From contig JAACDT010000186.1 in assembly GCA_009936885.1 (NCBI GenBank), forward strand, positions 1 to 17,097: a stretch of 17,097 bases of DNA, read 5' to 3'. A model generated the notes under the pieces. The model saw only the letters and a program-made list of their open reading frames with translations, did no database searches and had not been told where the DNA came from. This stretch comes from Alphaproteobacteria bacterium (lineage in GTDB: Bacteria; Pseudomonadota; Alphaproteobacteria; Puniceispirillales; Puniceispirillaceae). Each line of letters begins with the position of its first letter. Positions within the stretch are counted from its first letter, which is position 1. Of this stretch, positions 3,250-17,003 are shown in pieces. A program made the translations under genes and the position numbers.

Positions 3250-5424
3250 CTAAGTAATTTCTATCATTTCTGTAAATAGAGTTCCTGCTTCAACAACAAG
3301 TCCAATTGACCCTGATAAAAGAGGGTTATTTTTATCATCATACTCAAGAATAGACTTTGAATTCATTTTGCCCGTTATTACGCTACCATTTACGCCTAAC
3401 TCTAGGTGGTAGGCTTTGTTCAGCTCAAATGTTTCTTGTATCTCGCATAATATAGTGACCCCATCGAGCACTTTCACAAGCCTTAATATTCCTTTAGCTG
3501 TTAACTCTAGCGCATAATATCTCTGAAGCCCTTGCACTCTTGCTACAATTCCCCCTGACTTACCAAGGTAAAATTTCACATCTGTTGAAACGGTATAATC
3601 CGACCATTCAGATGACCCAGTGAGTATTAAACCCCTACCAAAATTATTACTTATTTTGAAAGCTGGCTCCCAAGATCTATCTGTCCAATGATCACATGCT
3701 TTAATCCAGCTTTGTCGCCACATTACTGCCGCGTTCCTATCTGGCACTTTCCCTCGCGCAAGCGGATTAACATGATCTGGTCTATGGAATTTAGTAAAAG
3801 CTTTTCCTGATATATTGACATAATCAAGATATAGTACGCCATCTGTCTGATTTTTAACGGAGATGATCTCTAAGCCTATTTCAGCGATAGGGAATGAGTC
3901 TGGAACTTTCACCTTCCAGTCAATCTTCTGCGTTTGACCAGGTTTAATTGTGATAATTTCTGCACCGAATGTTGTAAGTGCATCACTTTTGGAATAGGCA
4001 TTCACAAAAAAGCGGAATGAGAGTGGCTGCTTGTTATTTATATCTGCAGTTACTTCAGAGGAAATTAGTTGGCCTGAATAGATTTGGGGGCAACATAAAA
4101 AGTTATAACTAAAAAATGTCTTTTTTGCTTCACCCGTTAGCTGTGTTAATTCCTTCGGGAAAAAAGAGTTCGCAAATATTTTTCCACTTTCGGTTTGTGC
4201 CAGATTGTACCTTATTTTAAGTGCGCGGCTTCCAGTGTGACTATGCCCTTCGACGTTAGTTATTTCTAAAAATGAGCTGTTAGATGTTAGATTTAAAATA
4301 GCTCCCTTCCACCCTTGAATAGAACCGGGCATCTCAAAGTTATAGCGTGCACCATTTTTTGGTGGTTGAAATTCTATTCCTCGAATTTGGTTCGCAATCT
4401 TAATAATTTTATAAGATTCCGTCAGAGCATCCGTAATTGTCTGCGAGCCATCAGCGGTTGGACAATACATTATGTCACTAACCGGGCCTCGCCAATCTGT
4501 TCCACTATCAAAACTGTTTAAACCGTTTCTGATGCCAATAAGACAGCCAACATTCCCAGAATTGCAATCTGTATCCCATCCAGCCGTATTTACGATATTC
4601 ATTGTTTTATCAAAATCACCCTCACCATATAATAAAGAGAGAATAATCAATGCGTGATTTGGAATCATATGACACCCACCAGGATAGTGCTGATAACCAT
4701 ATCGGTTTTCAATACTCTGCCTTGTTTTCTTCCAATCTTTTTCTGATGAATGCCATTCTTCAATATCGCTTATTCTTCTGAAAATACTAGAATCTTTCGG
4801 AATAAGCGTTTTAGCGACTGATAATAGTTTTGATATATTTGTCTCCACAAATGCATATGATTCGAGCGCAGCAACGATCTTTGCGCCATACACTGCTTCG
4901 CCATCATGACTAACGCTTGCCGCTTTTCCAGCAAGTACCGCTGCTTTTTCCGGGTCACCCGGACAAACCATTGCCCATCCATCGATAAAGATTTGCGCAC
5001 CTATCTGCTCTGCAACCACTTTCCCATTTTGTGCGATCGAACCACTTTGGGGTGCAAAAATCCCATTCTTTAGATTTTGATAAGCTGTATGCTCTGATGA
5101 CTCCCCAACACCGCCCCACCATAAGATCGTCTCTTTCTCAACAATATAGTTTAGCCAAGTCTGGCCAATTTGCTTTGCCTCAATATCAAGGTTAGATTCA
5201 TAATCCTTCAAAGCTCTTAAAAAGGTGAAGGTTCCTGTAATGTCATCATCGGGTACAATTAAAGGCTTTTTCAGCTTGTCATTTACATAGTAATGCACCT
5301 CGCCGATTCTTTGCATAATAATATCATATGTCCATTGCTCGAATGGTCTGCCAAGATAGACGCCTATTATCTTGCCAAGCACACCTGCATATACTTTTTC
5401 TTGATAAATACTATCAAGTTCCAT
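3250..5424 (-). CDS. ADP-ribosylglycohydrolase-fold enzyme with C-terminal beta-rich domains
   Basis: 724 residues, no signal peptide, so probably cytoplasmic. Residues about 8-340 form an ADP-ribosylglycohydrolase (DraG/ARH) type domain. An acidic cluster VPDDDITGTF (57-66) and a second motif AGWDTDCNSGN (281-291), followed by spaced glycines, match the two halves of the family's dinuclear metal site. Known members remove ADP-ribose from proteins or hydrolyse related N- or O-ribosides. In a sugar-import operon the role is more likely cleavage of an imported glycoside or riboside, which is inference. DraG/ARH enzymes are about 300-350 residues. Here about 380 extra residues follow: a beta-rich segment (about 360-550) and a terminal region (about 590-724, with SDYTVSTDVKFYLG and YYALEL) resembling a concanavalin/LamG-like jelly roll that could bind carbohydrate. 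AAGGGG lies just upstream of the ATG, and the gene starts 2 bases after the permease stop, so the two are co-translated. Confidence 0.82.
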   Translation of the reverse strand: MELDSIYQEKVYAGVLGKIIGVYLGRPFEQWTYDIIMQRIGEVHYYVNDKLKKPLIVPDDDITGTFTFLRALKDYESNLDIEAKQIGQTWLNYIVEKETILWWGGVGESSEHTAYQNLKNGIFAPQSGSIAQNGKVVAEQIGAQIFIDGWAMVCPGDPEKAAVLAGKAASVSHDGEAVYGAKIVAALESYAFVETNISKLLSVAKTLIPKDSSIFRRISDIEEWHSSEKDWKKTRQSIENRYGYQHYPGGCHMIPNHALIILSLLYGEGDFDKTMNIVNTAGWDTDCNSGNVGCLIGIRNGLNSFDSGTDWRGPVSDIMYCPTADGSQTITDALTESYKIIKIANQIRGIEFQPPKNGARYNFEMPGSIQGWKGAILNLTSNSSFLEITNVEGHSHTGSRALKIRYNLAQTESGKIFANSFFPKELTQLTGEAKKTFFSYNFLCCPQIYSGQLISSEVTADINNKQPLSFRFFVNAYSKSDALTTFGAEIITIKPGQTQKIDWKVKVPDSFPIAEIGLEIISVKNQTDGVLYLDYVNISGKAFTKFHRPDHVNPLARGKVPDRNAAVMWRQSWIKACDHWTDRSWEPAFKISNNFGRGLILTGSSEWSDYTVSTDVKFYLGKSGGIVARVQGLQRYYALELTAKGILRLVKVLDGVTILCEIQETFELNKAYHLELGVNGSVITGKMNSKSILEYDDKNNPLLSGSIGLVVEAGTLFTEMIEIT

Positions 5425-5426
5425 AA

Positions 5427-6269
5427 CTACCCCTTGGTTCCGCCACTCGTCAAACCGGCTATAAAATTTCTTTGAAACAAAATAAAAAGTATCGCTAGGG
5501 GTGCGGCCATCATTATAGAAGCGGCACTTATCAATGCATAATTTTCTTCTCTTCGATTCTGAAAAGAATATAAAATTGTTGAGATTGGCTTGAACTCTTC
5601 ATTGTGAATAAATGTCACAGCAAATAAAAACTCATTCCAAACCGCCAGACTTACAACAAGCCCAGTTGTAAGGAAAACTGGCCACGACAAGGGCAAAGCA
5701 ACGCGGGTGAATAACTGAAAAGTGGATGCCCCTTCCACAATCGCTGCTTCAAATAACTCTCGCGGAAGTTGAACCATATAGCTCCTAATCAAAAAAACAG
5801 CGAATGGCGCATTCAGCGCACTGTAAATAAGTATTAGTCCAATAAAGGTGTTATTAAGATGGAGATTTTTCCAGATAATAAATAATGGAAGTATAAATAA
5901 TTGGGCTGGAATACTAAGACCAACTAGAAGATAAATGCCTATTAATATCGTAGCTTTTCCATTTGGGTTTAAAACAGCCAAACTAAATGCAGCCATGCTC
6001 GAAAATGTAAGACACACGGTTAATGTTCCTGTGACTAGCAACAGCGAATTCATCATTACCTGCGCATAATTTCCAATCACAAATGCATCATAGTAATTCA
6101 TCAATCTAACTGTTTCAGGAAAGCCAAGCGGATTTATTCCAAATTCCTCATCTGGCTTAATTGAGTTAAACACTAGCACCATTATCGGCATAATTATCGT
6201 TAGCGCTAGAGTCATTAAAATAATGTGATTACTAACGGCGCCTCTCAGCTTATTTTCAGAGATTCGCAT
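5427..6269 (-). CDS. Carbohydrate ABC transporter permease, MalG/UgpE-like
   Basis: Inner-membrane permease of 280 residues with about six hydrophobic segments, the usual MalG-type size. The cytoplasmic coupling loop carries the EAA motif: E174-A-A-I-V-E-G180, followed by LPLSWP, which docks on the ATPase. The short N-terminus and the hydrophobic segment right after it (ILMTLALTIIMPIMVLVFN) fit the MalG/UgpE side of the pair. A GGGAGA ribosome binding site lies about 8 bases before the ATG, and only 3 bases separate it from the stop of the preceding permease gene, so translation is likely coupled. With the neighbouring MalF-like permease it should form the membrane channel used by the binding protein at 7197-8528 and the ATPase at 2133-3218. 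The transported sugar cannot be read from the sequence. Confidence 0.92.
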   Translation of the reverse strand: MRISENKLRGAVSNHIILMTLALTIIMPIMVLVFNSIKPDEEFGINPLGFPETVRLMNYYDAFVIGNYAQVMMNSLLLVTGTLTVCLTFSSMAAFSLAVLNPNGKATILIGIYLLVGLSIPAQLFILPLFIIWKNLHLNNTFIGLILIYSALNAPFAVFLIRSYMVQLPRELFEAAIVEGASTFQLFTRVALPLSWPVFLTTGLVVSLAVWNEFLFAVTFIHNEEFKPISTILYSFQNRREENYALISAASIMMAAPLAILFILFQRNFIAGLTSGGTKG

Positions 6270-6272
6270 TAT

Positions 6273-7148
6273 TTATATCTCCCAGCCTAATTTTCTTAGC
6301 GTCCAAAAGAAACCCAAAATAGTAAACACATAAACAAACATCAATGCCCCAACAGCAGAGGCATATCCAACATTCATATTTCTAAAAGCTTCAAAATACA
6401 TAAAATTAGCAACGACTTCAGAGCTGTAGGCAGGCCCCCCAGAAGTGAGAATATAAACATAATCAAAGGCTGGGACAGACCAGATAATAATTATCAGAAA
6501 AGAAAACAAAAACATCGGTCTGATTGATGGAAATGTGACAAATCGAAATGTTTGCCATTTTGACGCACCCTCAATATCCGCAGCTTCATACAAGCTTTCA
6601 TCAACTTGATACATAGCGGTTATATAAATCACGACAAGGAAACCCCAAAAATGCCAACCATCTACAAATGCAACTGCATACAAAGAAGTCTCCTTGGTAG
6701 TTAGCGGCGATGTTGCCAACGACTCCCACCCTATATCTTTAAAAAAAGCCGCTAATCCGTGAATGGGATGGAATAGATATTTCCAAATTAGACAATTAAC
6801 GATGCTTGCCAAAATATATGGGAAAAAGAAAACAAATCTGTAAAACATCTGAAATCGTTTGACCCCCGTTAGCAAAAAAGCAGCTAAAAGCGCCAAAGCA
6901 ATGGGCACTGTTAGGAATAAAACAGTCCAGATTAAATTATGAATGATAGCTTTTTTAAACACACGATCATCAAATAATTCCAAGAAATTCTCAAAGCCAA
7001 CAAAATTGATTTTACCGAACCCATTCCAATCCGTAAAACAAAGGGCAAGGCTTGATAATGACGGAATAGCCACCACAAGCAAATGTATAAACAATACAGG
7101 GGCCAGAAAAAGCCAGCTTGTCATTTCTTTATTCGATAAGTTTTTCAT
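6273..7148 (-). CDS. Carbohydrate ABC transporter permease, MalF/UgpA-like
   Basis: Inner-membrane permease with about six hydrophobic segments. Its EAA coupling loop is E188-A-A-D-I-E-G194, counted from the ATG at 7148. I chose this ATG (MKNLSNKEMTSWLFLAP) over an upstream TTG at 7190 because the longer version would run through a strong hairpin (7158-7184) and adds a non-hydrophobic extension; the start at 7148 gives 292 residues, a normal size. No strong ribosome binding site precedes 7148, and an ATG at 7124 (MTSWLFLAP) is also possible. The gene follows the binding protein and precedes the second permease by 3 bases, the standard binding protein-permease-permease order of CUT1 operons. 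Confidence 0.9.
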   Translation of the reverse strand: MKNLSNKEMTSWLFLAPVLFIHLLVVAIPSLSSLALCFTDWNGFGKINFVGFENFLELFDDRVFKKAIIHNLIWTVLFLTVPIALALLAAFLLTGVKRFQMFYRFVFFFPYILASIVNCLIWKYLFHPIHGLAAFFKDIGWESLATSPLTTKETSLYAVAFVDGWHFWGFLVVIYITAMYQVDESLYEAADIEGASKWQTFRFVTFPSIRPMFLFSFLIIIIWSVPAFDYVYILTSGGPAYSSEVVANFMYFEAFRNMNVGYASAVGALMFVYVFTILGFFWTLRKLGWEI

Positions 7149-7157
7149 GAGAACGAT

Positions 7158-7184
7158 AAATGGAGCCGCAGAACGGCTCCATTT
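7158..7184 (-). promoter_or_regulatory. Intercistronic hairpin between binding-protein and permease genes
   Basis: A perfect 11-bp inverted repeat (7158-7168 paired with 7174-7184, core TGGAGCCG/CGGCTCCA) closes a 5-base loop just after the stop codon of the binding-protein gene. On the minus strand no clear U-run follows, so it is unlikely to be a full intrinsic terminator. In other sugar operons such hairpins protect the 3' end of the binding-protein message or partly stop transcription, so that binding protein is made in excess over permease. That role is inferred here. Confidence 0.65.
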
Positions 7185-7196
7185 CACCAATAGTTT

Positions 7197-8528
7197 CTAT
7201 CTTGCTGCTATCGGCAAGAGTTCGTTATTCTTTCTTGCTTTTTCCCAGAGCTTTTGCTGTTCAACTAGAAATTCTTCAACTGAGATATCACCAGCCCAGA
7301 CTACTTCCATATCCTTCCAGATATGCGTTCCAGCTTCTGGCGGATAGTAGGTCCATGTTGTATACCCATAGTTACCGTTACCTGTTCTCTCAGAAAAGTC
7401 TACGAGATAATCACGCAACTTTGGTTCGATATCACCCGCAAAGTCAGCTTCCTCATAATAAAGAGGCATTAGCCATTCACCAAAATTTCGGCTTTTAGTG
7501 AGCTCAATAATGGTGTCTTTGTTGGTTAAAATCCAATTAAGTACTTCAGCTGCAGCATCAGGGTTCTTACTTGCAGCGTTTATTGATAATGTTCCACCAA
7601 CTGAAAGCTGATAGTTAGGCTCCCCGCCTTCCTCAGTTAGTATAGGAAGTGGTGCCCATCCCCAATCATCTGACTTACCATCGAGACCTGTTGCTATTTC
7701 AAAACCCCACGAACCAATTTGAAGCATTGCTGCCTCTCTGTTCTGGAATTGGGCCGAGAAATCATCCCACCCAACAGCATAGTAATTCTCAAGGCTTCCA
7801 GACCAGTAGCCAGCAAGCATATGCTTTTTAAGCAGTTCTAAAGATTCCACAAACTCTGGATCCGTCCATTCTTTCTCGCCAACCATTGCCTTATAAACGT
7901 TATCAGGGCCAGCCACAGTATTTAAGTAGTTGCCTGCAAGATGCTCATGTGTCATTTGCCAGCCAGAAGAGCCATAGGCAAACGGATACAAACCTTTCTC
8001 TTGTATCTTAGCTGCTAGAGCTTCATATTCAGCAAGATTAGTTGGAAGCGACCATCCATTTTCTTCAAACAATGTTTTATTGTAGAAATACAACATGCTT
8101 TCATAGTTTTTGGGTAATGAGTAAAGCTCATCGCTAAATACACCTGTATTATAAGCCCATGGTAAGATTTTATCACTCCAGCCGAATTTTTCAGCATACC
8201 CTTCCAAAGATTTAAGGAACCCGCCTTCTACATATTTTGCGACATAAGTAGCACCAGAAGAACTTACTATGTCAGGGCCTACGCCCGCTAGCAGTGCTGT
8301 CCTCGTTGCCTCATTATACTCGCCTTCTTTAAAAATGATCTCTAATTCAATCTCACTCTGAGATGAATTAAAACCATCTTGGATATATTGCGTTAATGCT
8401 GCATTTAAACCACTTCCCTCATTAGAATAATTCCACCAAGAGATTTGCGTTTTCGAAACCGCTACTGTTGAAAAAAGAAATGATGTGGTAATGATACCGT
8501 AAAAAATACTCTTTGAAATAACTCTCAA
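7197..8528 (-). CDS. Sugar ABC transporter substrate-binding protein (CUT1, SBP_bac_1-like)
   Basis: Periplasmic sugar-binding protein, 443 residues, normal for the family. It starts with a signal peptide: Arg2 and Lys6, a hydrophobic core (IFYGIITTSFLFSTVAV), and likely cleavage near residue 25. The mature start TQISWWNYS and later features such as GVGPDIV, AAMLQIGSWGFE and AAEVLNWILTN are typical of extracellular solute-binding family 1. The start codon is TTG (8528-8526), supported by a strong GGGGAGGA site about 5 bases upstream; no ATG lies nearby. It begins 20 bases after the lacI stop, so regulator and binding protein are probably on one transcript. It is followed by a strong hairpin and two permease genes. 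The ligand is unknown; many tryptophans and tyrosines are consistent with sugar stacking. Confidence 0.93.
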   Translation of the reverse strand: MRVISKSIFYGIITTSFLFSTVAVSKTQISWWNYSNEGSGLNAALTQYIQDGFNSSQSEIELEIIFKEGEYNEATRTALLAGVGPDIVSSSGATYVAKYVEGGFLKSLEGYAEKFGWSDKILPWAYNTGVFSDELYSLPKNYESMLYFYNKTLFEENGWSLPTNLAEYEALAAKIQEKGLYPFAYGSSGWQMTHEHLAGNYLNTVAGPDNVYKAMVGEKEWTDPEFVESLELLKKHMLAGYWSGSLENYYAVGWDDFSAQFQNREAAMLQIGSWGFEIATGLDGKSDDWGWAPLPILTEEGGEPNYQLSVGGTLSINAASKNPDAAAEVLNWILTNKDTIIELTKSRNFGEWLMPLYYEEADFAGDIEPKLRDYLVDFSERTGNGNYGYTTWTYYPPEAGTHIWKDMEVVWAGDISVEEFLVEQQKLWEKARKNNELLPIAAR

Positions 8529-8548
8529 TTTTTCCTCCCCTTGTTTTG

Positions 8549-9556
8549 CTACGCCGAATTTCGCCGAATAATTCTATACGGCTGTTTTATTGTCTGTCCC
8601 TGTCCAATCACTTGTTTATTAAGACGTCCAATAATCAGTTTTGCAGCTTTTGCTGCGCTATCTTCTTGAAACCTATCAATCGTAGTAAGTGCTGGTGTGA
8701 CCAATTCTGCAGCTGGTATATTATCAAAACCAGTGACTGCGATTTGGTCTGGAATAGACAATCCAAGTTTTTTTATAACTCTCATACATCCAATTGCCAT
8801 CAAATCATTGGCGGCAACAATCGCAGAAGGAGCGTGTCTTTTTGATAATAATTTTTGAAGCGCCATTTTACCGCCATTTTCATTGAACTCTTCTTCTAAC
8901 TGCACGAATGGCTTTATGTCAGCATCAGCAAGTGCCTTTTTATATCCAGAAACACGAAGATGTTGTGGTCCACCTTTTCCTGAAATCATACAAATGTCTG
9001 TGTGCCCTTTATCAATGAGTAGCTGGGTTATGTCTTTAAATGCAGATTCATCATCTACATATAAACTATCAAAGAATTGAGGTGCTTGGGCTCTTGCGTT
9101 CGACTCCAGCCTCACCACCGGAATATTCTGTTCGGCTAATTCTTCAAAATGAGATGAATCAAGATTAAAAAATACGCCTATCAGCCCATCATACCTACCT
9201 TGCTTCACAAGCTCGATATAATGCATCTCTCTATCTTTACTTCCATCTGTATTAAGCGTTACCGCATCATAATCCGCAGCTTCGCATGTGCGTTGCACAC
9301 CCTTTACCAAGGCTGGATAAAATGGGTTTGTAATATCGGGAATGATGCAGGCAAGAGTTTGCGTACGGTTTGTTCTCAATGCTTTGGCAAAGCGATTTGG
9401 CTTATAATTAAGCTCGTTAGCAACTTTTTTGATCCGCTCAATCGTCCGAGACGGGATATTTAGCTCTGAAGACGGATTTAATGCGTTCGAGACAGTAGCT
9501 TGGGATACCCCGGCCTTTGTTGCCACGTCTTTTTGAGTGGTATTATTAAACCCCAT
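8549..9556 (-). CDS. LacI-family transcriptional regulator
   Basis: 335 residues, the standard LacI/PurR length. The N-terminal helix-turn-helix is clear (TQKDVATKAGVSQATVSNAL, residues 7-26), followed by the hinge region LNYKPNRFAKAL. The rest is a periplasmic-binding-protein-like effector domain, from about residue 60 to the end, with typical stretches such as IIPDITNPFYPALVKG and AIVAANDLMAIGCM. It should bind a palindromic operator and release it, or bind it, on sensing a sugar or catabolite. The ATG at 9556 is preceded by AAGGG. The gene lies first in the sugar operon, with only 20 bases before the binding-protein gene, so it probably autoregulates and controls the whole unit. The likely operator is the 13-bp repeat array immediately upstream (9570-9634). 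Confidence 0.95.
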   Translation of the reverse strand: MGFNNTTQKDVATKAGVSQATVSNALNPSSELNIPSRTIERIKKVANELNYKPNRFAKALRTNRTQTLACIIPDITNPFYPALVKGVQRTCEAADYDAVTLNTDGSKDREMHYIELVKQGRYDGLIGVFFNLDSSHFEELAEQNIPVVRLESNARAQAPQFFDSLYVDDESAFKDITQLLIDKGHTDICMISGKGGPQHLRVSGYKKALADADIKPFVQLEEEFNENGGKMALQKLLSKRHAPSAIVAANDLMAIGCMRVIKKLGLSIPDQIAVTGFDNIPAAELVTPALTTIDRFQEDSAAKAAKLIIGRLNKQVIGQGQTIKQPYRIIRRNSA

Positions 9557-9855: not shown

Positions 9856-9869
9856 AATTGTTAACAATT
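9856..9869. promoter_or_regulatory. Perfect 14-bp palindrome, probable operator
   Basis: AATTGTTAACAATT reads identically on both strands and sits just after the candidate -10, over the expected transcription start. Its ATTG...CAAT form resembles sites of FadR/VanR-subgroup GntR repressors; for example, the Caulobacter VanR site as I recall it is ATTGGATCCAAT. A fragment at the right edge of the window looks like the end of such a regulator. The link between the two is inference. Confidence 0.5.
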
Positions 9870-9903
9870 GACAAAAGCTTCACTAAGTTTTAAGGAGACT
9901 CCA

Positions 9904-11046
9904 ATGAACAACGAAAAATCTAAATTCAAGAACGTTTTAATTAATCCTAATTCACAATTAGGTGGTACTAGAAGAAAATTCATAGCCCAAGGTGCTGCCA
10001 TTGGCGCAGTTAGCCTTTCGACTCCTTTCATTTCTAAAATTGCCGGCGCTTCTACGTCTGTAAATGTGTTAGCATTCGGTGGATATGAAGAGCCCGGAAT
10101 GTTAACAGAATTTGAAGAAAAAACAGGTATAACAGTAAACCTGAAAATTCATGATGGCTCAGACGAAGAAATGATTGCCTTGATGGAAACTTCATCTCCC
10201 GGGACATTTGACGTTATCACCCCCACTAGTGCTTACATACCAAAAGCAATAGAAGATGGAATAATAGCGGAATTAAACCCTGCAGATTTCCCTTTGGACG
10301 ACTACTTTGACATAATCGCAAACTGGCCTCCTGTATGGAAAACCGGGAAACTTTACGCCATCGTAAATAGATTTGGATATTATGGCATAACATATAACCA
10401 TAAAAAATTCTCAGAATCAGATGTCTCGTCTTATGACATTCTTTTTGACCCGTCTGTAAAAGGAAGAGTAGCTTTATTTGACTGGTTTTTACCTAATATG
10501 GGATGCCTTTCAAAATATAATGGAAACCCAAATCCGTATGATTTAGACACAGCTGCTTTTTCAGCATTAAATGACACTCTTACTAAATTACGACCACAAG
10601 TAGGGCTGGTTGGTAATACAAGCCAAGTTATTCAGGCGATGGCAGGTGGCTCCTATGATTTAGCAATTGCTGGTGAGTGGGTTCAAGCTGGAATGTATGA
10701 TGATGGCCTGCCATTTAAAGCACTCGTTCCAGAACAAGGTGGTGTCACATGGGATCAGGCGGTTTGTGTTTCCGCAACGACCCCTAACAAAGAAAATGCA
10801 GTGAAATTTTTACAATATGTAACAGGCCCTGCTTTCCAGTCAAAACTTGCAATTGCAAAAACATATTACAGCATGGTTCCAAATAAAAAAGCGGCAGTTA
10901 TGTTACCGGATGACAAAAGAGAACTATTAAATCTGTCTAACATTGAAAAATTTGACGAAATATTCATGTCTAACCTTTCACCGAGGAAGAGTCCAGATAA
11001 TCGTGATGAATGGATGGCTTCTTGGGAGCAGTTTAAAAACGCATAA
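9904..11046 (+). CDS. PotD-like ABC transporter substrate-binding protein, Tat-exported
   Basis: Periplasmic binding protein of the spermidine/putrescine (PotD/PotF) class, 380 residues from the ATG at 9904. AAGGAG six bases upstream supports this ATG over an upstream in-frame TTG at 9868. The N-terminus has a twin-arginine signal: TRRKFIAQ with Arg23-Arg24, a hydrophobic stretch (GAAIGAVSLSTPFI), then a small-residue region (KIAGAST), so it is probably folded before export. The mature part begins VNVLAFGGYEEPG and contains features usual in this class, such as FDVITPTSAYIPKAIEDG and a late AVKFLQYV. The partner permeases are at 12469-14129, separated by the cyclase gene. The ligand may be a polyamine, an amino-acid derivative or another cationic or amide compound. 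The last codons and stop lie at the edge of an 18-bp duplication. Confidence 0.9.
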   Translation: MNNEKSKFKNVLINPNSQLGGTRRKFIAQGAAIGAVSLSTPFISKIAGASTSVNVLAFGGYEEPGMLTEFEEKTGITVNLKIHDGSDEEMIALMETSSPGTFDVITPTSAYIPKAIEDGIIAELNPADFPLDDYFDIIANWPPVWKTGKLYAIVNRFGYYGITYNHKKFSESDVSSYDILFDPSVKGRVALFDWFLPNMGCLSKYNGNPNPYDLDTAAFSALNDTLTKLRPQVGLVGNTSQVIQAMAGGSYDLAIAGEWVQAGMYDDGLPFKALVPEQGGVTWDQAVCVSATTPNKENAVKFLQYVTGPAFQSKLAIAKTYYSMVPNKKAAVMLPDDKRELLNLSNIEKFDEIFMSNLSPRKSPDNRDEWMASWEQFKNA

Positions 11047-11116: not shown

Positions 11117-12463
11117 ATGGAATATATCAGCCTAGCTCAAACGATTGAGCCTCATTGGTTTTGGGAGAGCTTTCCCCTTGTGTCTCAATCTTATTCCGAT
11201 GGTGATGAATTTCGGGAATTTGGATTAAGATGGGCTGGAAAAGGATTCACCTATGCTAGTGCGCCAGGTTGGCACTTTAAAGACAAGCCAACATTAGACG
11301 ATTTTCCAATAGAAAATTTTGCAAATATTGCTCAGGTGATAGACCTAACACAGAGCGCTAAAACTGGGTTTATCGCAGCTGGGGATTTTACAGATAAAAT
11401 TGGTTTGGGCTCACTACCAAAAATAATAATTTTAAAAACAGGTCATTCGGATACTATACCGATGAGACGAAGGGAATATTTCACGCAGATTCCCAAACTT
11501 GCCCCTGCAATCGCGGAGATCGCAGCCGAGCGAGGGGTTGTTAATATCTGTATTGATTTTTCATGTGATAGTTCTAAGAGTAAAAGAGCTGATTTTACGC
11601 AAGCTATTATTAATCCTAATTCAGAATTCCGTGATAGAGCGCATTCAGCAGGATTGATAGTAACTGAAAATTTATGTAATCTTGACAAAATTGGCTCTGA
11701 GGTATTTCTCCTTTGCCTTCCTATTAAAGGTGAGGGAATGACTACCTCTCCCACAAGACCAGTCGCGCTAACTGAATGGCCATCAGATACACCTTCTATC
11801 TATGACGTCTCAACGCCGCTATTGAACCATTGGCGTTGGCGAATGGAAATATGGAGAGATAAATCAGAAAGTTCAGATGGCTGTCTTGACCAAACACAAT
11901 ATATTCAATCTGGACATGCATTTACCCATTGTGACGCTCCTCGACACATGGAACAGGACGGGCCAACAATACAAGACCTTCCGAATATGGGATTAGATTT
12001 ATTCTTAGGTGATGCAACTATAATTGATATTTCTGATATAGAATTGCCCTCACCTGTTACAGCTGATTTATTGGAGAGACGGTGTGGTGGAAATATAAAG
12101 CAAAATCAGCGAATAATTCTGAGAAGTGACTTAACAAACCGCCTTGGATACAAATCTACCCGCTGGCATACTCACGCACCAAACATTGATGCTTCTGCTG
12201 CCGATTGGCTGATCTCAAAAAAACCTGATGCTATCTGTCTGGATTTCCCGCAGGATTATATTGCGCGAGAAATGCCTGGACGACATGTTTATAATCATGA
12301 ATTTGAAATTCATCATAAAATATTTCAAGCTGGAATTCCCTTTATAGAAGACCTAAAAGACCTAGGTGAAGTAAAGCAGGAAAATATTTTTCTAGCAGCC
12401 GTCCCGCTTAAAATGAATTGTATTGATGGAGCTCCAATGAGAGCTGTTATCATAAATTGGTAA
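11117..12463 (+). CDS. Double-domain cyclase-family protein (kynurenine formamidase-like fold)
   Basis: 448 residues, about twice the size of a normal cyclase-family hydrolase (about 210-260), because the fold occurs twice. The C-terminal half carries the metal-binding motif H267-x3-H271-C-D273-A-P275-R-H277, equivalent to the HxxxHxDxPxH motif of KynB and isatin hydrolase, so it should be an active metal-dependent amidohydrolase. The N-terminal half follows the same order of elements: FTYASAPGWHF at 44-54 against FTHCDAPRHM at 269-278, VIDLTQ against IIDISD, ICIDF against ICLDF, then EVFLLCLPIKG against NIFLAAVPLKM. It has Lys42, Tyr46 and Ser48 where metal ligands belong, so it is probably structural or regulatory. 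GAGGA lies six bases before the ATG. It has no signal peptide. Its place between binding protein and permeases suggests that it hydrolyses the imported compound or an early product, probably an amide or lactam bond. Confidence 0.85.
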   Translation: MEYISLAQTIEPHWFWESFPLVSQSYSDGDEFREFGLRWAGKGFTYASAPGWHFKDKPTLDDFPIENFANIAQVIDLTQSAKTGFIAAGDFTDKIGLGSLPKIIILKTGHSDTIPMRRREYFTQIPKLAPAIAEIAAERGVVNICIDFSCDSSKSKRADFTQAIINPNSEFRDRAHSAGLIVTENLCNLDKIGSEVFLLCLPIKGEGMTTSPTRPVALTEWPSDTPSIYDVSTPLLNHWRWRMEIWRDKSESSDGCLDQTQYIQSGHAFTHCDAPRHMEQDGPTIQDLPNMGLDLFLGDATIIDISDIELPSPVTADLLERRCGGNIKQNQRIILRSDLTNRLGYKSTRWHTHAPNIDASAADWLISKKPDAICLDFPQDYIAREMPGRHVYNHEFEIHHKIFQAGIPFIEDLKDLGEVKQENIFLAAVPLKMNCIDGAPMRAVIINW

Positions 12464-12468
12464 CTGAT

Positions 12469-13314
12469 ATGAGCGCCTCTTCAAATACTATAAATCCATG
12501 GCCGTTTTTATTGCCTGCATTGTCTCTTTGCTTATTGTTTTTTCTGCTTCCCACGCTGAATATGGTTATATTGAGCCTTACAACAGAGACAGGCTTTGGA
12601 TTTGACAATTTCAAACTATTTTTTGCGACCCCTCACTTAACCCAAGCTCTTTATCGCAGTCTTATCCTTGCATCATCCGCTACCATAGTCGCAAGCTTAG
12701 TTGCATGTCCACATGCCTATTTTATCGTATTTTGCGTGCACAAAAAATGGCGCCCTTTATTCCTTCTGGCAATTCTTGCCCCTTTCTGGACAAGTTTCAC
12801 TATACGCGCTTTCTCATGGCAACTTGTCTTATCTGATAATGGTGTTGTTACGTGGTTTATTGAACTAGTAACAGGTTTTTCGGTAACTCTTGGTATTCTC
12901 TACACCATGAATGCATCTATCTTCGGACTTGCTCTGTTTGGCTCAATGCTCACTACATTCACATTGTATGGGGCGCTTGTCTCAATTGATCATAAACTAA
13001 TAGAAGCAGCATCCACGCTGGGCGCAAAGCCTTTTCATATTTTCAAGGATATCATATTGCCTCTTGGACTTCCCGGATGGCTTGCCGGTATTTTTCTAAC
13101 CTTTATTGTATGCGTGGGGGACTATGCAGTGCCAACATTGTTAGGTGGCGGGCTAAAGCCTGTACTTGCTCAGATAATGCTTTCCATTTTGAAGGGAACT
13201 TATGATCTATCACAGGCAGCTACAATTGCTATTGTTCTGGCAATGACCGTCATAATATGTGGGCTTCCTATCATTTTATACGGTTTTGCGAAGAGACGTA
13301 GGTTTGCTGCATGA
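12469..13314 (+). CDS. ABC transporter permease, PotB-like
   Basis: Inner-membrane permease of 281 residues with about six hydrophobic segments. The coupling loop has E179-A-A-S-T-L-G185 followed by an LPLGLPG turn, as in spermidine/putrescine-type permeases. The long N-terminal hydrophobic segment after a short polar start (INPWPFLLPALSLCLLFFLLPT) and the later FTIRAFSWQLVLSDNGVV match PotB-like proteins. I chose the ATG at 12469; a TTG at 12457 overlapping the cyclase stop would add four residues. No strong ribosome binding site is visible, so translation may be coupled to the cyclase gene, whose stop lies 5 bases upstream. It should pair with the next gene to form the channel for the PotD-like binding protein. 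Confidence 0.92.
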   Translation: MSASSNTINPWPFLLPALSLCLLFFLLPTLNMVILSLTTETGFGFDNFKLFFATPHLTQALYRSLILASSATIVASLVACPHAYFIVFCVHKKWRPLFLLAILAPFWTSFTIRAFSWQLVLSDNGVVTWFIELVTGFSVTLGILYTMNASIFGLALFGSMLTTFTLYGALVSIDHKLIEAASTLGAKPFHIFKDIILPLGLPGWLAGIFLTFIVCVGDYAVPTLLGGGLKPVLAQIMLSILKGTYDLSQAATIAIVLAMTVIICGLPIILYGFAKRRRFAA

Positions 13315-14129
13315 ATAATTTAATTGTTAGCAAATTTATGTTTTCCATACTTACAGCGTTCTTCTGTCTGTCACTCATAGTTATTTACTTACCAATCATC
13401 GTAATGATGATTTTTTCTTTTAATAGTGGCAAGTATCAAACCCTTCCGTTCAGAGAGCCGACTTTTGAATGGTATGTGGCACTAATTGCGGATAGTAGTT
13501 TTATAAATAGCTTTCTTACAAGCCTTATGATGGCGTCCCTTGCAAGCGTTTTTGCAACCATTTTAGGGTTTTTAGCCGCCTATGCTTTCAGTAAAGCCAA
13601 GGTTCCCGCACATGCGTTGTTGTTCGGAATTGTTATTTGCCCATTAGTCATTCCGATGATTTTAATTGGCATTGGCATGCGCCTTCAAATTGTATCACTC
13701 GGAATTGAACCTGCCCTTTGGCTAGTCCTACTAGGCCAGACATTATATGTATTACCATTAGCAGTTATCAATTTAAAAAACCGAATAGACAAAATCCCTC
13801 AATCCATGGAAGAGGCCGCAATTTCTTTGGGCTCAAGCAGATTAAAATCTATTATCCTTATTCTAGCGCCAATTTGCGCCCCATCTCTTTTTGCGACATT
13901 ACTGCTCACTTTTACTTTTTCGTTTGACGAATTCGTAATCGCCTATTTCTTGACAAACTTTGAAATAACTCTTCCAATCCGAATTTGGACCTCTCTGGTT
14001 ACTGGTTTTGAGCCCAAAATAAATGCAGCTGGAACTGCTGTTTTTATCTTTTCTTTAACTTTAGGCCTTATTGCGCAATTTATTTTGCTATTTAAGCAAT
14101 CAGATTTGAGTGAATACAGAACACAATGA
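13311..14129 (+). CDS. ABC transporter permease, PotC-like
   Basis: Inner-membrane permease of 272 residues with about six hydrophobic segments. The coupling loop is E168-A-A-I-S-L-G174, and the N-terminal part (YLPIIVMMIFSFNSGKYQ, then FEWYVALIADSSF) is characteristic of PotC-like subunits, as is FSFDEFVIAYFLT near the end. Its ATG overlaps the stop of the preceding permease gene in ATGA, a sign of translational coupling and equal output of the two subunits. No ATP-binding subunit follows in the operon. The only importer-type ATPase in the window is the sugar-type one at 2133-3218. Confidence 0.93.
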   Translation: MNNLIVSKFMFSILTAFFCLSLIVIYLPIIVMMIFSFNSGKYQTLPFREPTFEWYVALIADSSFINSFLTSLMMASLASVFATILGFLAAYAFSKAKVPAHALLFGIVICPLVIPMILIGIGMRLQIVSLGIEPALWLVLLGQTLYVLPLAVINLKNRIDKIPQSMEEAAISLGSSRLKSIILILAPICAPSLFATLLLTFTFSFDEFVIAYFLTNFEITLPIRIWTSLVTGFEPKINAAGTAVFIFSLTLGLIAQFILLFKQSDLSEYRTQ

Positions 14130-14163
14130 GAGAAACGAGCCCAATGAAAAAAGGGAATCTGAT

Positions 14164-15246
14164 ATGAAATTAAGAAGATCACCAACATTAGAAATTGGGG
14201 AGCGAATAAAGGCTGCAAAAAACCAGAATAAAATATTATGGTCTTTATCTACACCCAATCTTCCAAGCTATGATGATGTTCTTCAGACAGATCCATCCTG
14301 GGGCAGGTTAACCCCCCCTGCTGGCATGCCTGAGCTAATAGAACATACAAAGACAGCTCTATTCAATAATTGGGACCAATCCAAACATGAAGTTATTATC
14401 GCTGCTGGCGCGAAGGCAGCTTTATTTGCAATTTTGAAAACCATAACTATTCCTGGAGATAAAGTGGTTCTTCCTTCTCCAACATGGCCTAGCTATTTTG
14501 ATATTTGCTCAATAGCAGATTGCAAACCAATTGAGATGCCAACTTTATTCTCAAACAAGTTTGAAATGGAATTGGATATAATTCAGCAATTATATCAGCA
14601 AAACCGATTTAAAGTTATTATATTCAGCAATCCAAATAATCCATCTGGAGTGATTTATGATAGCTTATTTCTTACTGGCCTTATTGAATTAGCAGAAAAA
14701 TCTGGATTTTATATTATTGTTGATCAAAGTTTCTCTAGGATTATCTTTGATGAAGATAAATGGTCTGCATCACACTGCCGTAATTCAGAAAAGCTGTTCG
14801 TGGTGGATTCATTCTCGAAAAACTTCTTATTGCAAGGCGCTAGAGTATCAGCAACGCTTGTTCCTGAAGCCTATGCTCAAAATTTCACCAATATACATCA
14901 AACACTTCTAAGCTCTGCTCCTGCACCAGCGCAAATAATGGCGTTAAACGCGGTGCAAAATAATTTAGTAATACCATCATTAAGCAAACAAAAGGATGTG
15001 ACCAGAAAATTCATTACAGCTCAAAAATGGAGTTTTGTTGAGCAATCAGGTTCCTTTTATTATTTTCCAAAGACAGATAACTTCTCAGTTTTGGAGGAAA
15101 AAGCAGAGCTTAGAGACGTTTTATTATTAGGCGGTCGTATTTTCGGAAGTAACTATAAAGAACATTTCCGGCTATGCTTTGCCCGTCCATTATCTGAGCT
15201 AGAAATCATATTCAATAAATTAGATGAAGCTTTAAATGGCAAGTAA
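14164..15246 (+). CDS. Class I/II PLP-dependent aminotransferase
   Basis: Cytoplasmic fold-type I aminotransferase, 360 residues from the ATG at 14164; AAGGGA seven bases upstream favours this over a GTG at 14110 inside the permease gene. Expected landmarks are present: the SNPNNPSG motif (155-162) for cofactor and substrate contacts, D-S-F-S-K219 with the PLP-binding lysine, and R336 in HFRLCFARP for a substrate carboxylate. It is a little shorter than aspartate aminotransferases and resembles the HisC/alanine-aminotransferase-like group. Within this operon it probably moves the amino group of the imported or hydrolysed compound to a 2-oxo acid, giving an aldehyde or oxo acid for the next enzyme. 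A decarboxylase or lyase of the same fold is less likely but possible. Its end overlaps the aldehyde dehydrogenase start by 11 bases. Confidence 0.88.
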   Translation: MKLRRSPTLEIGERIKAAKNQNKILWSLSTPNLPSYDDVLQTDPSWGRLTPPAGMPELIEHTKTALFNNWDQSKHEVIIAAGAKAALFAILKTITIPGDKVVLPSPTWPSYFDICSIADCKPIEMPTLFSNKFEMELDIIQQLYQQNRFKVIIFSNPNNPSGVIYDSLFLTGLIELAEKSGFYIIVDQSFSRIIFDEDKWSASHCRNSEKLFVVDSFSKNFLLQGARVSATLVPEAYAQNFTNIHQTLLSSAPAPAQIMALNAVQNNLVIPSLSKQKDVTRKFITAQKWSFVEQSGSFYYFPKTDNFSVLEEKAELRDVLLLGGRIFGSNYKEHFRLCFARPLSELEIIFNKLDEALNGK

Positions 15247-16615
15247 TAACCAAAAAGACTGTATATCTCCTAACTCTGGAGCCCCCTTTGATAAGTGGAG
15301 CAATACAACACCAGCACAGTTACAGGCATCACTCGATGCCATTAATAGAAAGTCATTTTCTGAATTAAAAGAGGCATCGTCACGGGGCTCTATTTTGTTA
15401 TCCATCGCAAACTTGATTGAGAAAAATCGAAAAGACTTTGAAGGATTAATAGTAACAGAGGTAGGAAAAACGCAGGCCGAGGCAATATCCGAAATTGATT
15501 ACTCCAAGTCGTTTTTAACATATATGGCGAATGCTATCTCCTCGTTAGAGCTAACCGAACAACTAGAACCTAATCGCAAAGTAACGACAGTCCCAAGAGG
15601 CATTGGTTTGCTGATTACTCCATTTAACGACCCTCTTGCGGGTATTACGCGCAAAATAGCAAACTGTATCGGCTCTGGTGCGGGCGCAATTATCAAACCG
15701 CCCGAGCTAGGAATAAAAACAGCAACCAAACTTGAAGAAATTTTGAAACAGGAAAAACTCGATCATATTTTGAGTTTTGTTCGAACAGGTGACAGAAACC
15801 TCATCCAACAACTTATGGCCGCTGATGAAATTGGGACGATTAGTTTTACAGGTTCAACCGAAGTTGGGGTATTACTTTCAACTAATGCAGGAAGAAATCT
15901 AAAACCCTTCGTGGGGGAACTTGGCGGAATAAATCCTTTTGTTATTTTCTCAGACGCGGACGTCAGTAAAGCGGTTGATGACCTTGTAGTGCGAAAAGTA
16001 AAAGCGGCAGGACAAGCTTGTTCCGCTCAGAATATCCTGTTCGTAGAGAAAAAGGTCGCTGATTATGCAATCCAAAAAATTGAAGATGCATTTTCCAAAA
16101 TAAAAGCGAGTGCAACTGATAGCGTTGCTGAAGCTAAAATGGGTCCCGTTCGAACTAAAAAAGCACTAGAAACTCTATATATGTTTGAAGAAAAATTAAT
16201 TAGGGCAGGTGCGACTTGTGTAGCAGGCTCTCAAAATCGTACAAAAGGGCCAGGCTTTATGTATGACCCTACCGCCTTTCTTATTAGTGAACCAAACTTA
16301 TTCTTAGAATATGAGATTTTCGCGCCGTTATTGGGAATTTGTGTTTTCGAGGACAGAGAAAAGCTTCGCGAGACTATTCGTTCTAATAAACAACCCTTGG
16401 TATTATACGCCTATTCGAGTGACGAACACTATCTAAAGGAATTTATTTCCGGATTGAATTATGGTTCCATTGGATTGAATGACACCGGCATTCAAGGCGC
16501 CCACGCGCCAACTGGAGGCTTCAGACAAGCCGGTTTAGGCAGAGAAGGCGGTACATGGGGACTGAGTGAATTCACAACAACTATCAATGTAAAAGAAGTA
16601 TCTTCAACAGAGTAA
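15236..16615 (+). CDS. NAD(P)-dependent aldehyde dehydrogenase
   Basis: Cytoplasmic aldehyde dehydrogenase of 459 residues, slightly shorter than the common 475-500. Catalytic features are intact: Asn131 in TPFNDP, Lys154 in IIKPPE for cofactor binding, FTGSTEVG of the nucleotide site, general base Glu228 in GELGG, and nucleophile Cys262 in GQACSAQN. The 34-residue spacing between Glu and Cys is the usual one. The ATG lies inside the end of the aminotransferase gene (11-base overlap), pointing to coupled translation and a shared pathway. It most likely oxidises the aldehyde that transamination produces, to a carboxylic acid that enters central metabolism. It could act on a semialdehyde such as succinate or malonate semialdehyde, but the sequence alone does not decide this. 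Confidence 0.92.
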   Translation: MASNNQKDCISPNSGAPFDKWSNTTPAQLQASLDAINRKSFSELKEASSRGSILLSIANLIEKNRKDFEGLIVTEVGKTQAEAISEIDYSKSFLTYMANAISSLELTEQLEPNRKVTTVPRGIGLLITPFNDPLAGITRKIANCIGSGAGAIIKPPELGIKTATKLEEILKQEKLDHILSFVRTGDRNLIQQLMAADEIGTISFTGSTEVGVLLSTNAGRNLKPFVGELGGINPFVIFSDADVSKAVDDLVVRKVKAAGQACSAQNILFVEKKVADYAIQKIEDAFSKIKASATDSVAEAKMGPVRTKKALETLYMFEEKLIRAGATCVAGSQNRTKGPGFMYDPTAFLISEPNLFLEYEIFAPLLGICVFEDREKLRETIRSNKQPLVLYAYSSDEHYLKEFISGLNYGSIGLNDTGIQGAHAPTGGFRQAGLGREGGTWGLSEFTTTINVKEVSSTE

Positions 16616-16625
16616 GGAAAGGCAA

Positions 16626-17003
16626 ATGATCGAAATTATTAAAACAAATAAAGCGCCTGCTTCTACGTCGCCAGTATCACAGGGAACAAAAGGGGGCGGA
16701 TTGGTATTTGTTGGTGGTCAGATGCCAAGAGATATGGCAAGCCAGAAAATTGTAGATGGCGCTCTGAATCAGGCTCGCCTTTCCCTTAAGCACGGAATTT
16801 CCATTCTAAATGAAGCAGGTTCTGGTGTAGGAGATGTTTTGCTGGCAGTTGTGTATATGACTGATTTATCTCAAAAAGACGCTGTGAATCAAGCATTTTT
16901 AGAAGTGTTTGGAGATAGACCACCAACAAGGAATTTGGTTGAAGTTTCAGATATTGGTGAGGATACTATTATAGAGGTCGCCCTTACTGCAATCGCCCAT
17001 TAG
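16626..17003 (+). CDS. RidA/YjgF-family protein (imine/enamine deaminase-like)
   Basis: Small cytoplasmic protein of 125 residues, the normal length for this trimeric family, whose members hydrolyse reactive imines and enamines or act as specific deaminases. Visible family features are FVGGQMPRD (28-36), the helix around GALNQARLSLKHGISILNEAG (45-65), VVYMTDL and RPPTRNLVEV with the conserved Arg102. At the position where archetypal RidA has a second conserved Glu (EIEAIA) this protein has Ala119, so it may belong to a Rid branch with another substrate. AAGGA overlaps the stop codon of the aldehyde dehydrogenase gene, 7 bases before the ATG. In this operon it probably clears the imine formed by the aminotransferase or acts as a pathway deaminase. 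Confidence 0.92.
   Translation: MIEIIKTNKAPASTSPVSQGTKGGGLVFVGGQMPRDMASQKIVDGALNQARLSLKHGISILNEAGSGVGDVLLAVVYMTDLSQKDAVNQAFLEVFGDRPPTRNLVEVSDIGEDTIIEVALTAIAH

Follow-up and report, generated by a model that had tools for sequence, protein, structure and literature searches.

A tandem cyclase-fold protein with one degenerate metal site and a conserved hairpin in its dead half

The gene at 11117..12463 (+) of the 17,097-nucleotide stretch of DNA analysed here, hereafter the window, encodes a 448-aa tandem cyclase-fold protein of a family, A, in which a dead half precedes a live one. This protein is very probably a fused pseudo-heterodimer with one working metal site, the hairpin of the dead half completing the pocket of the live half; most likely, the two halves each contribute one part to the same composite active site. 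The C-half would carry the metal centre (His267, His271, Asp273, His399 and Glu411) and the catalytic His277, as KynB, a binuclear zinc enzyme, does; the bond that it hydrolyses is most likely an amide, formamide or lactam. The N-half, catalytically dead, would keep a swapped hairpin (residues 19-39) that crosses to the C-half and sets Phe32 and Glu34 into the wall of its pocket. The presumed ancestor is a symmetric homodimer with both parts in every subunit; upon duplication and fusion, one half would have lost its metal site and the hairpin of the other half its constraint. As a natural case, the protein suggests that a pseudoenzyme half may be retained for a short element that completes its partner, not for a pocket of its own.

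Two cyclase domains and the loss of one metal site

The PF04199 profile matched the whole protein at 81.4 bits, against a gathering score of 23.1. Searched separately, the C-half (residues 225-448; 11789..12460 (+)) scored 55.3 bits and the N-half (residues 1-224; 11117..11788 (+)) 29.6 bits, both above the gathering score. Each half belongs to a known fold, the cyclase fold, and the 448-residue protein is confirmed to consist of two complete cyclase/kynurenine-formamidase (PF04199) domains, as an earlier sequence-only reading of this DNA had claimed.

The C-half holds an intact metal motif, H267, H271, D273, P275 and H277 (11915..11947 (+)), and second-site ligands from His399 to Glu411 (12311..12349 (+)). 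In the N-half the motif is degenerate (K42, Y46, S48, P50 and W52; 11240..11272 (+)), and Arg172 to Glu184 (11630..11668 (+)) mark the positions of the second-site ligands, His161 and Glu173 in KynB. The family A search returned 105 matches, giving 106 rows with the query; 98 rows (query and 97 homologues) were kept, each with both halves filled to 85% or more, and the rows dropped include the single-domain P0105. SAR116-labelled and other alphaproteobacterial genomes contain relatives whose proteins are 74-95% identical.

Both motif assignments of the earlier reading, the C-terminal set from H267 to H277 and Lys42, Tyr46 and Ser48 at the N-terminal metal-ligand positions, were borne out across these rows: the H, H and D of HxxxHxDxPxH were present in the live half of 98/98 rows and in the dead half of 0/98. 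The complete set of KynB metal and catalytic residues (His50, His54, Asp56, His60, His161 and Glu173) was found in the C-half of 97/98 rows, including the window protein, whose N-half retains one of the six. Because the N-half has the full set in none of the 98 paired rows, ligand loss is a family trait; it was conserved across the homologues, with intact motifs in both halves in 0/98. A local mutation in this genome was ruled out by loss in 98/98 paired rows.

Constraint on the hairpin of the dead half

In KynB, the pocket is lined by the partner's Val40 and Val42, the first metal ligand is His50, and the hairpin is a main dimer contact, as a four-stranded sheet (PMC4243253, available text). 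In isatin hydrolase, the opposing monomer gives Trp59 and Trp61 via a hairpin swap and the first ligand is His69; the available text of PMC6117287 terms this two-residue contribution from the partner a hallmark of the fold. On these descriptions, the trans pairs of both enzymes lie at -10 and -8 from the first metal His.

The N-half beta-hairpin of the window protein (residues 19-39; 11171..11233 (+)) may enter the C-half active site in the same way. Phe32 to Glu34 (11210..11218 (+)) stand at -10 and -8 from the first-ligand position, and both end residues were invariant in the dead half of the paired rows (98/98 each). The counterpart hairpin in the C-half (residues 243-264; 11843..11908 (+)) is drifting: the window protein has Leu257 and Gln259 at these positions, and the commonest residues in the 98 rows were R (22), A (20) and E (16) at -10 and E (61), R (17) and Q (15) at -8. 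By analogy with the two homodimers, we infer that Phe32 and Glu34 of the N-half contact the C-half pocket. The window protein has one unusual residue in its otherwise frozen hairpin, Arg33 (window 11213-11215), where 89/98 rows have Gln.

As far as the available portions of the two papers go, the window protein resembles KynB in its fold, in the six C-half residues and in a partner-given hairpin pair at -10/-8, whereas the KynB homodimer has single-domain subunits, two active sites and a trans Val/Val pair instead of Phe/Glu (PMC4243253). Isatin hydrolase shares the fold, the hairpin swap and trans residues at -10/-8, but is described as a homodimer with mononuclear Mn, Gln219 as a partial ligand and a Trp/Trp trans pair (PMC6117287). 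That Trp pair is absent here from both the dead half (Phe32/Glu34) and the live half (Leu257/Gln259). With His399 and Glu411 present, the predicted ligand set resembles that of binuclear KynB.

For each column, conservation in the dead half was compared with that in the live half, using sequence weights. Over the domain as a whole, the dead half of family A was less conserved (mean -0.43 bits). In its best segment, residues 22-32, it was better conserved by +1.73 bits, the next separate segment reaching +0.58; this value was attained in 0/10000 column permutations, a figure that is optimistic because permutation ignores correlation between neighbours. Among 200 contiguous segments of hairpin length, the hairpin alone attained its value, its exact limits having been chosen after a first look at the alignment. 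A second family, B, described below, gave a domain mean of -0.51 and a top segment at the equivalent place, 21-33, with +1.54 bits (next +0.52; 0/10000 permutations). Only at the hairpin does the conservation of the dead half far exceed that of the live half.

Eight near relatives were identical to the window protein at 18-19 of 21 residues of the N-hairpin. In seven of them the C-hairpin fell below this, at 6-16 of 22; the closest relative, L003, showed no asymmetry (N-hairpin 18/21, C-hairpin 19/22). Dead-half omega was 0.067-0.089 in five of the eight near-relative comparisons, the other three giving no value, and these estimates are rough because four of the five had dS above 1.7. The omega values indicate purifying selection on the dead half and ruled out a decaying pseudogene.

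Structure prediction gave a pTM of 0.93 for the whole chain. The hairpin was modelled confidently only when the C-half was present: block-mean pLDDT over residues 11-40 was 42, 43 and 35 for the N-half alone (alignment of 28 rows) and 95, 93 and 94 in the full model (88 rows).

A mirror family, single-domain cousins and domain order

Five A loci (L015, L016 and L020, with a short form in L030 and L031) carry a divergent neighbour with its halves reversed. The search for this family B, in which scoring was limited to the 7992 candidates sharing most words, gave 69 matches. Two of these (P0066 and P0089) were family A; the other 67 comprised 55 full-length proteins, 7 short ones and 5 fragments of 268-390 aa, which were dropped. 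The six ligands were complete in 54/55 full-length N-halves and 0/55 C-halves, that is, in live-dead order. The dead C-half of B held GDxVQE (G in 54/55; D, V, Q and E in 55/55). The live-half hairpin had Leu at -10 in 54/55 and Glu at -8 in 55/55, and because the live half also has these residues, the split between live and dead hairpins is incomplete in B.

Six of the 31 genomes holding A also hold B by match strength, two of them as the short form. In one SAR116-labelled genome, B lies on a separate contig and adjoins a solute-binding protein 49% identical to that of the window, with PotA-, PotB- and PotC-like genes. No B protein was seen in the window's own genome (~80% complete) in searches with A and PF04199 only.

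The short B proteins (P0166-P0172, L030:6542-7705 (-) and L031:6541-7689 (-)) are 381-387 aa long; the nine are distinct, with four pairs more than 95% alike. All nine kept GDQVQE and all six live ligands. Their dead halves had 0 of 6 ligands and lacked three blocks (P0106 residues 340-356, 364-382 and 394-413), and in 9/9 the sites of Asp381 and Glu404, which are otherwise conserved, were missing. The dead pocket was thus lost while the hairpin was kept, which, for B at least, argues against the half being kept for the sake of its dead pocket. The L030 and L031 assemblies are 1.1-1.2 Mb and may be incomplete.

Single-domain cousins of about 224 residues had all six ligands in 11/11. Their hairpin held G in 11/11, D in 7/11, F in 7/11 or V in 3/11, and Q in 9/11. 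The set consists of the 11 of 20 distinct matches above 240 bits; a further place, in a 579-aa frame (L093), was removed by a length filter. Judged by their sequences, these cousins match what one would expect of a symmetric homodimeric ancestor. Cousin-profile searches matched 10/385, 5/398, 7/31 and 4/14 genomes (own and repeats included). The six cousin regions contained no match to the binding protein, permeases, aminotransferases or dehydrogenase of the A operon; one had a RidA-like match (28%) and another a GntR-like and an ABC-ATPase match.

Separate subunits were sought with the N-half profile in 385 genomes of the class, of which 14 matched, own included. Nine of the 13 other matched genomes had a protein with full HxxxHxDxPxH, the four best among these. 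No match in the 385 genomes had lost the whole motif, and a separately encoded dead subunit was rejected since none of the proteins of the 13 genomes had lost it entirely. The remaining four of the 13 (L074-L077) have single-domain cyclase relatives without the first His but with HxDxPxH; one of these lies in a 509-aa frame.

The live halves of A and B grouped together in four trees (92/78, 96/90, 89/78 and 86/81), as did the dead halves (97/89, 97/85, 92/90 and 80/72), with support in the last two trees below the tool's star threshold. For these last two trees, 11 single-domain rows were combined with 14 of the 98 or 55 rows in each tandem group, and functional columns were removed from the fourth; the first placed P0105 in the wrong group, and the second was built without P0105 and two long rows. 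The trees favour one duplication followed by a change of domain order, as read from sequence, with AU alternatives standing at p 0.07 to 0.27: neither the grouping of both halves of A (p 0.255, 0.271 and 0.16) nor that of both halves of B (p 0.24, 0.256 and 0.072) was rejected. It is conceivable, though we lean away from it, that A and B go back to separate duplications, after each of which the halves divided the labour in the same way. The AU results fit such an origin, as do the differing ligand losses: Glu was the sole ligand left in 91/98 dead halves of A, whereas the His50 and His54 positions were retained in 50/55 of B, and the second-site pair was Arg or Lys with Glu in A (95/98) and Glu or Asp with Lys or Arg in B (55/55). 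The best trees, two of them under the star threshold, speak against it in joining live with live and dead with dead. Since the dead halves of A and B lost metal by different routes, their deaths look at least partly independent.

A fuller history has, in our judgement, an even chance of being right. A hairpin-swapped homodimer would have been fused and then undergone mirror-image complementary loss, giving dead-live order in A and live-dead order in B, with different routes of metal loss and the same hairpin frozen; the dead half of B would also have shrunk around the hairpin in one marine lineage. A two-fold dimer permits fusion in either order, so that fused dimers may repeatedly end up with one active site each. 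The mirror families, single-domain cousins and short forms make the idea of a dead half kept for its hairpin directly testable at two residues.

Two homologous domains in one chain, one of them without catalytic residues family-wide, are also the arrangement of PRMT7. According to the available text of PMC8399567, PRMT7 is a tandem duplication of a normally homodimeric enzyme that forms a homodimer-like unit with one inactive module; it is, however, an unrelated methyltransferase in live-dead order, whereas both orders occur here and the dead half would supply pocket residues. In the trypanosome AdoMetDC/prozyme pair a live paralogue likewise needs a dead one, but the two are separate chains and activation is through relief of autoinhibition (PMC5201418, available text). 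A fused pair with one dead half is thus known elsewhere; we found no report of a cyclase-family, mirror-order case in the literature searched, part of it available as excerpts. The open-licence literature searched also contained no tandem PF04199 protein, substrate of one or earlier report, which is a weak absence.

Operon context and competing explanations

The tandem gene follows a PotD-like solute-binding protein gene of the same operon (9868..11046 (+)). Downstream are PotB- and PotC-like permease genes (12457..14129 (+)) and genes for a class I aminotransferase, an aldehyde dehydrogenase and a RidA-type protein (14110..17003 (+)). This arrangement recurred across the 31 A loci: a PotD-like gene on the same strand lay no more than 700 bases upstream in 30/30 testable loci, followed by PotB in 28/28 and PotC in 26/26. 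Where there was enough flank, the aminotransferase and aldehyde dehydrogenase were present in 18/18 and RidA in 17/18. Further along the A loci were a GntR/FCD regulator, an extra ABC ATPase (putative PotA) and a class III aminotransferase, with an amidase in some.

By eye, no signal peptide was evident in the tandem protein and the binding protein had a twin-arginine-like start, which makes the cytoplasm the probable place where an imported solute is processed. The adjacent Pot-type importer may deliver an amide-containing, perhaps cationic, solute; from the acidic Glu34 and the polyamine-type importer, a cationic amide is a reasonable guess for the substrate, and no more.

The sequence-only reading had suggested that the fused active/inactive pair is a built-in pseudo-dimer with a new substrate pocket or regulatory site. 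The pseudo-dimer is well supported by the fold, by ligand loss in 98/98 rows and by a hairpin modelled confidently only with the other half; a new substrate pocket or a regulatory site located in the dead half is not the reading that we favour, since constraint peaks at the hairpin and the short B proteins no longer have the dead pocket. If the dead half were instead a regulatory or second ligand-binding domain, its old active-site pocket binding an effector or substrate and controlling the live half, this could account for the other residues kept in the dead half of A, namely W52 (98/98), D147 (98/98), C150 (96/98) and Arg or Lys172 with Glu184 (95/98). D147, however, is retained in all five groups, live ones included, and W52 and the Arg-Glu pair could merely fill and neutralise the emptied metal site. 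With constraint highest at the hairpin rather than the pocket, and with 9/9 short proteins, albeit of family B, keeping the hairpin without the pocket, we consider a regulatory role quite improbable. The dead half might instead serve only as a solubility or dimer-interface scaffold, its hairpin conserved for packing. The KynB hairpin is also a main dimer contact (PMC4243253, available text), so packing alone would constrain a hairpin; packing would nevertheless be expected to constrain both hairpins, and that of the dead half is much better conserved in A and in B, which leaves a pure scaffold unlikely.

A true kynurenine formamidase in a tryptophan-degradation context would agree with TIGR03035 being the only NCBIfam match and with all KynB ligands being present in the C-half. 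The match of 80.2 bits is far under the TIGR03035 cut-off of 223.05, the Val/Val pair in the partner's pocket is replaced by Phe/Glu, and the operon combines a polyamine-type importer with an aminotransferase and a dehydrogenase, making this identity highly improbable. Kynurenine formamidase proper was ruled out on the score and the operon context, and a plain annotation of such proteins by that name is misleading. The composite active site, with a hairpin of the dead half completing the live pocket, is the reading that we prefer.

Several further genes were observed near the A operon and in the window. At L028:2892-4844 (+), close to the A operon, is a fusion of an arylmalonate-decarboxylase-like domain with a class III aminotransferase, and the two parts are separate ORFs at L020:2646-4693 (-). 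A weak, partial match to the decarboxylase-like domain was found at L003:17888-19327 (-), in an ORF reaching almost to the locus end. The Rhodobacter-labelled genome of L028 has a second, amino-acid-type importer beside the A operon (L028:2-2891), whose matches, mostly below curated cut-offs, are to ectoine, glutamine and basic amino acid systems. The minus-strand region 3250-9556 of the window contains a 724-aa ORF that appeared by eye to be ADP-ribosylglycohydrolase-like with a long extra C-terminal part; its neighbours in this region, also by eye, were an apparent sugar ABC importer and an apparent LacI-type regulator.
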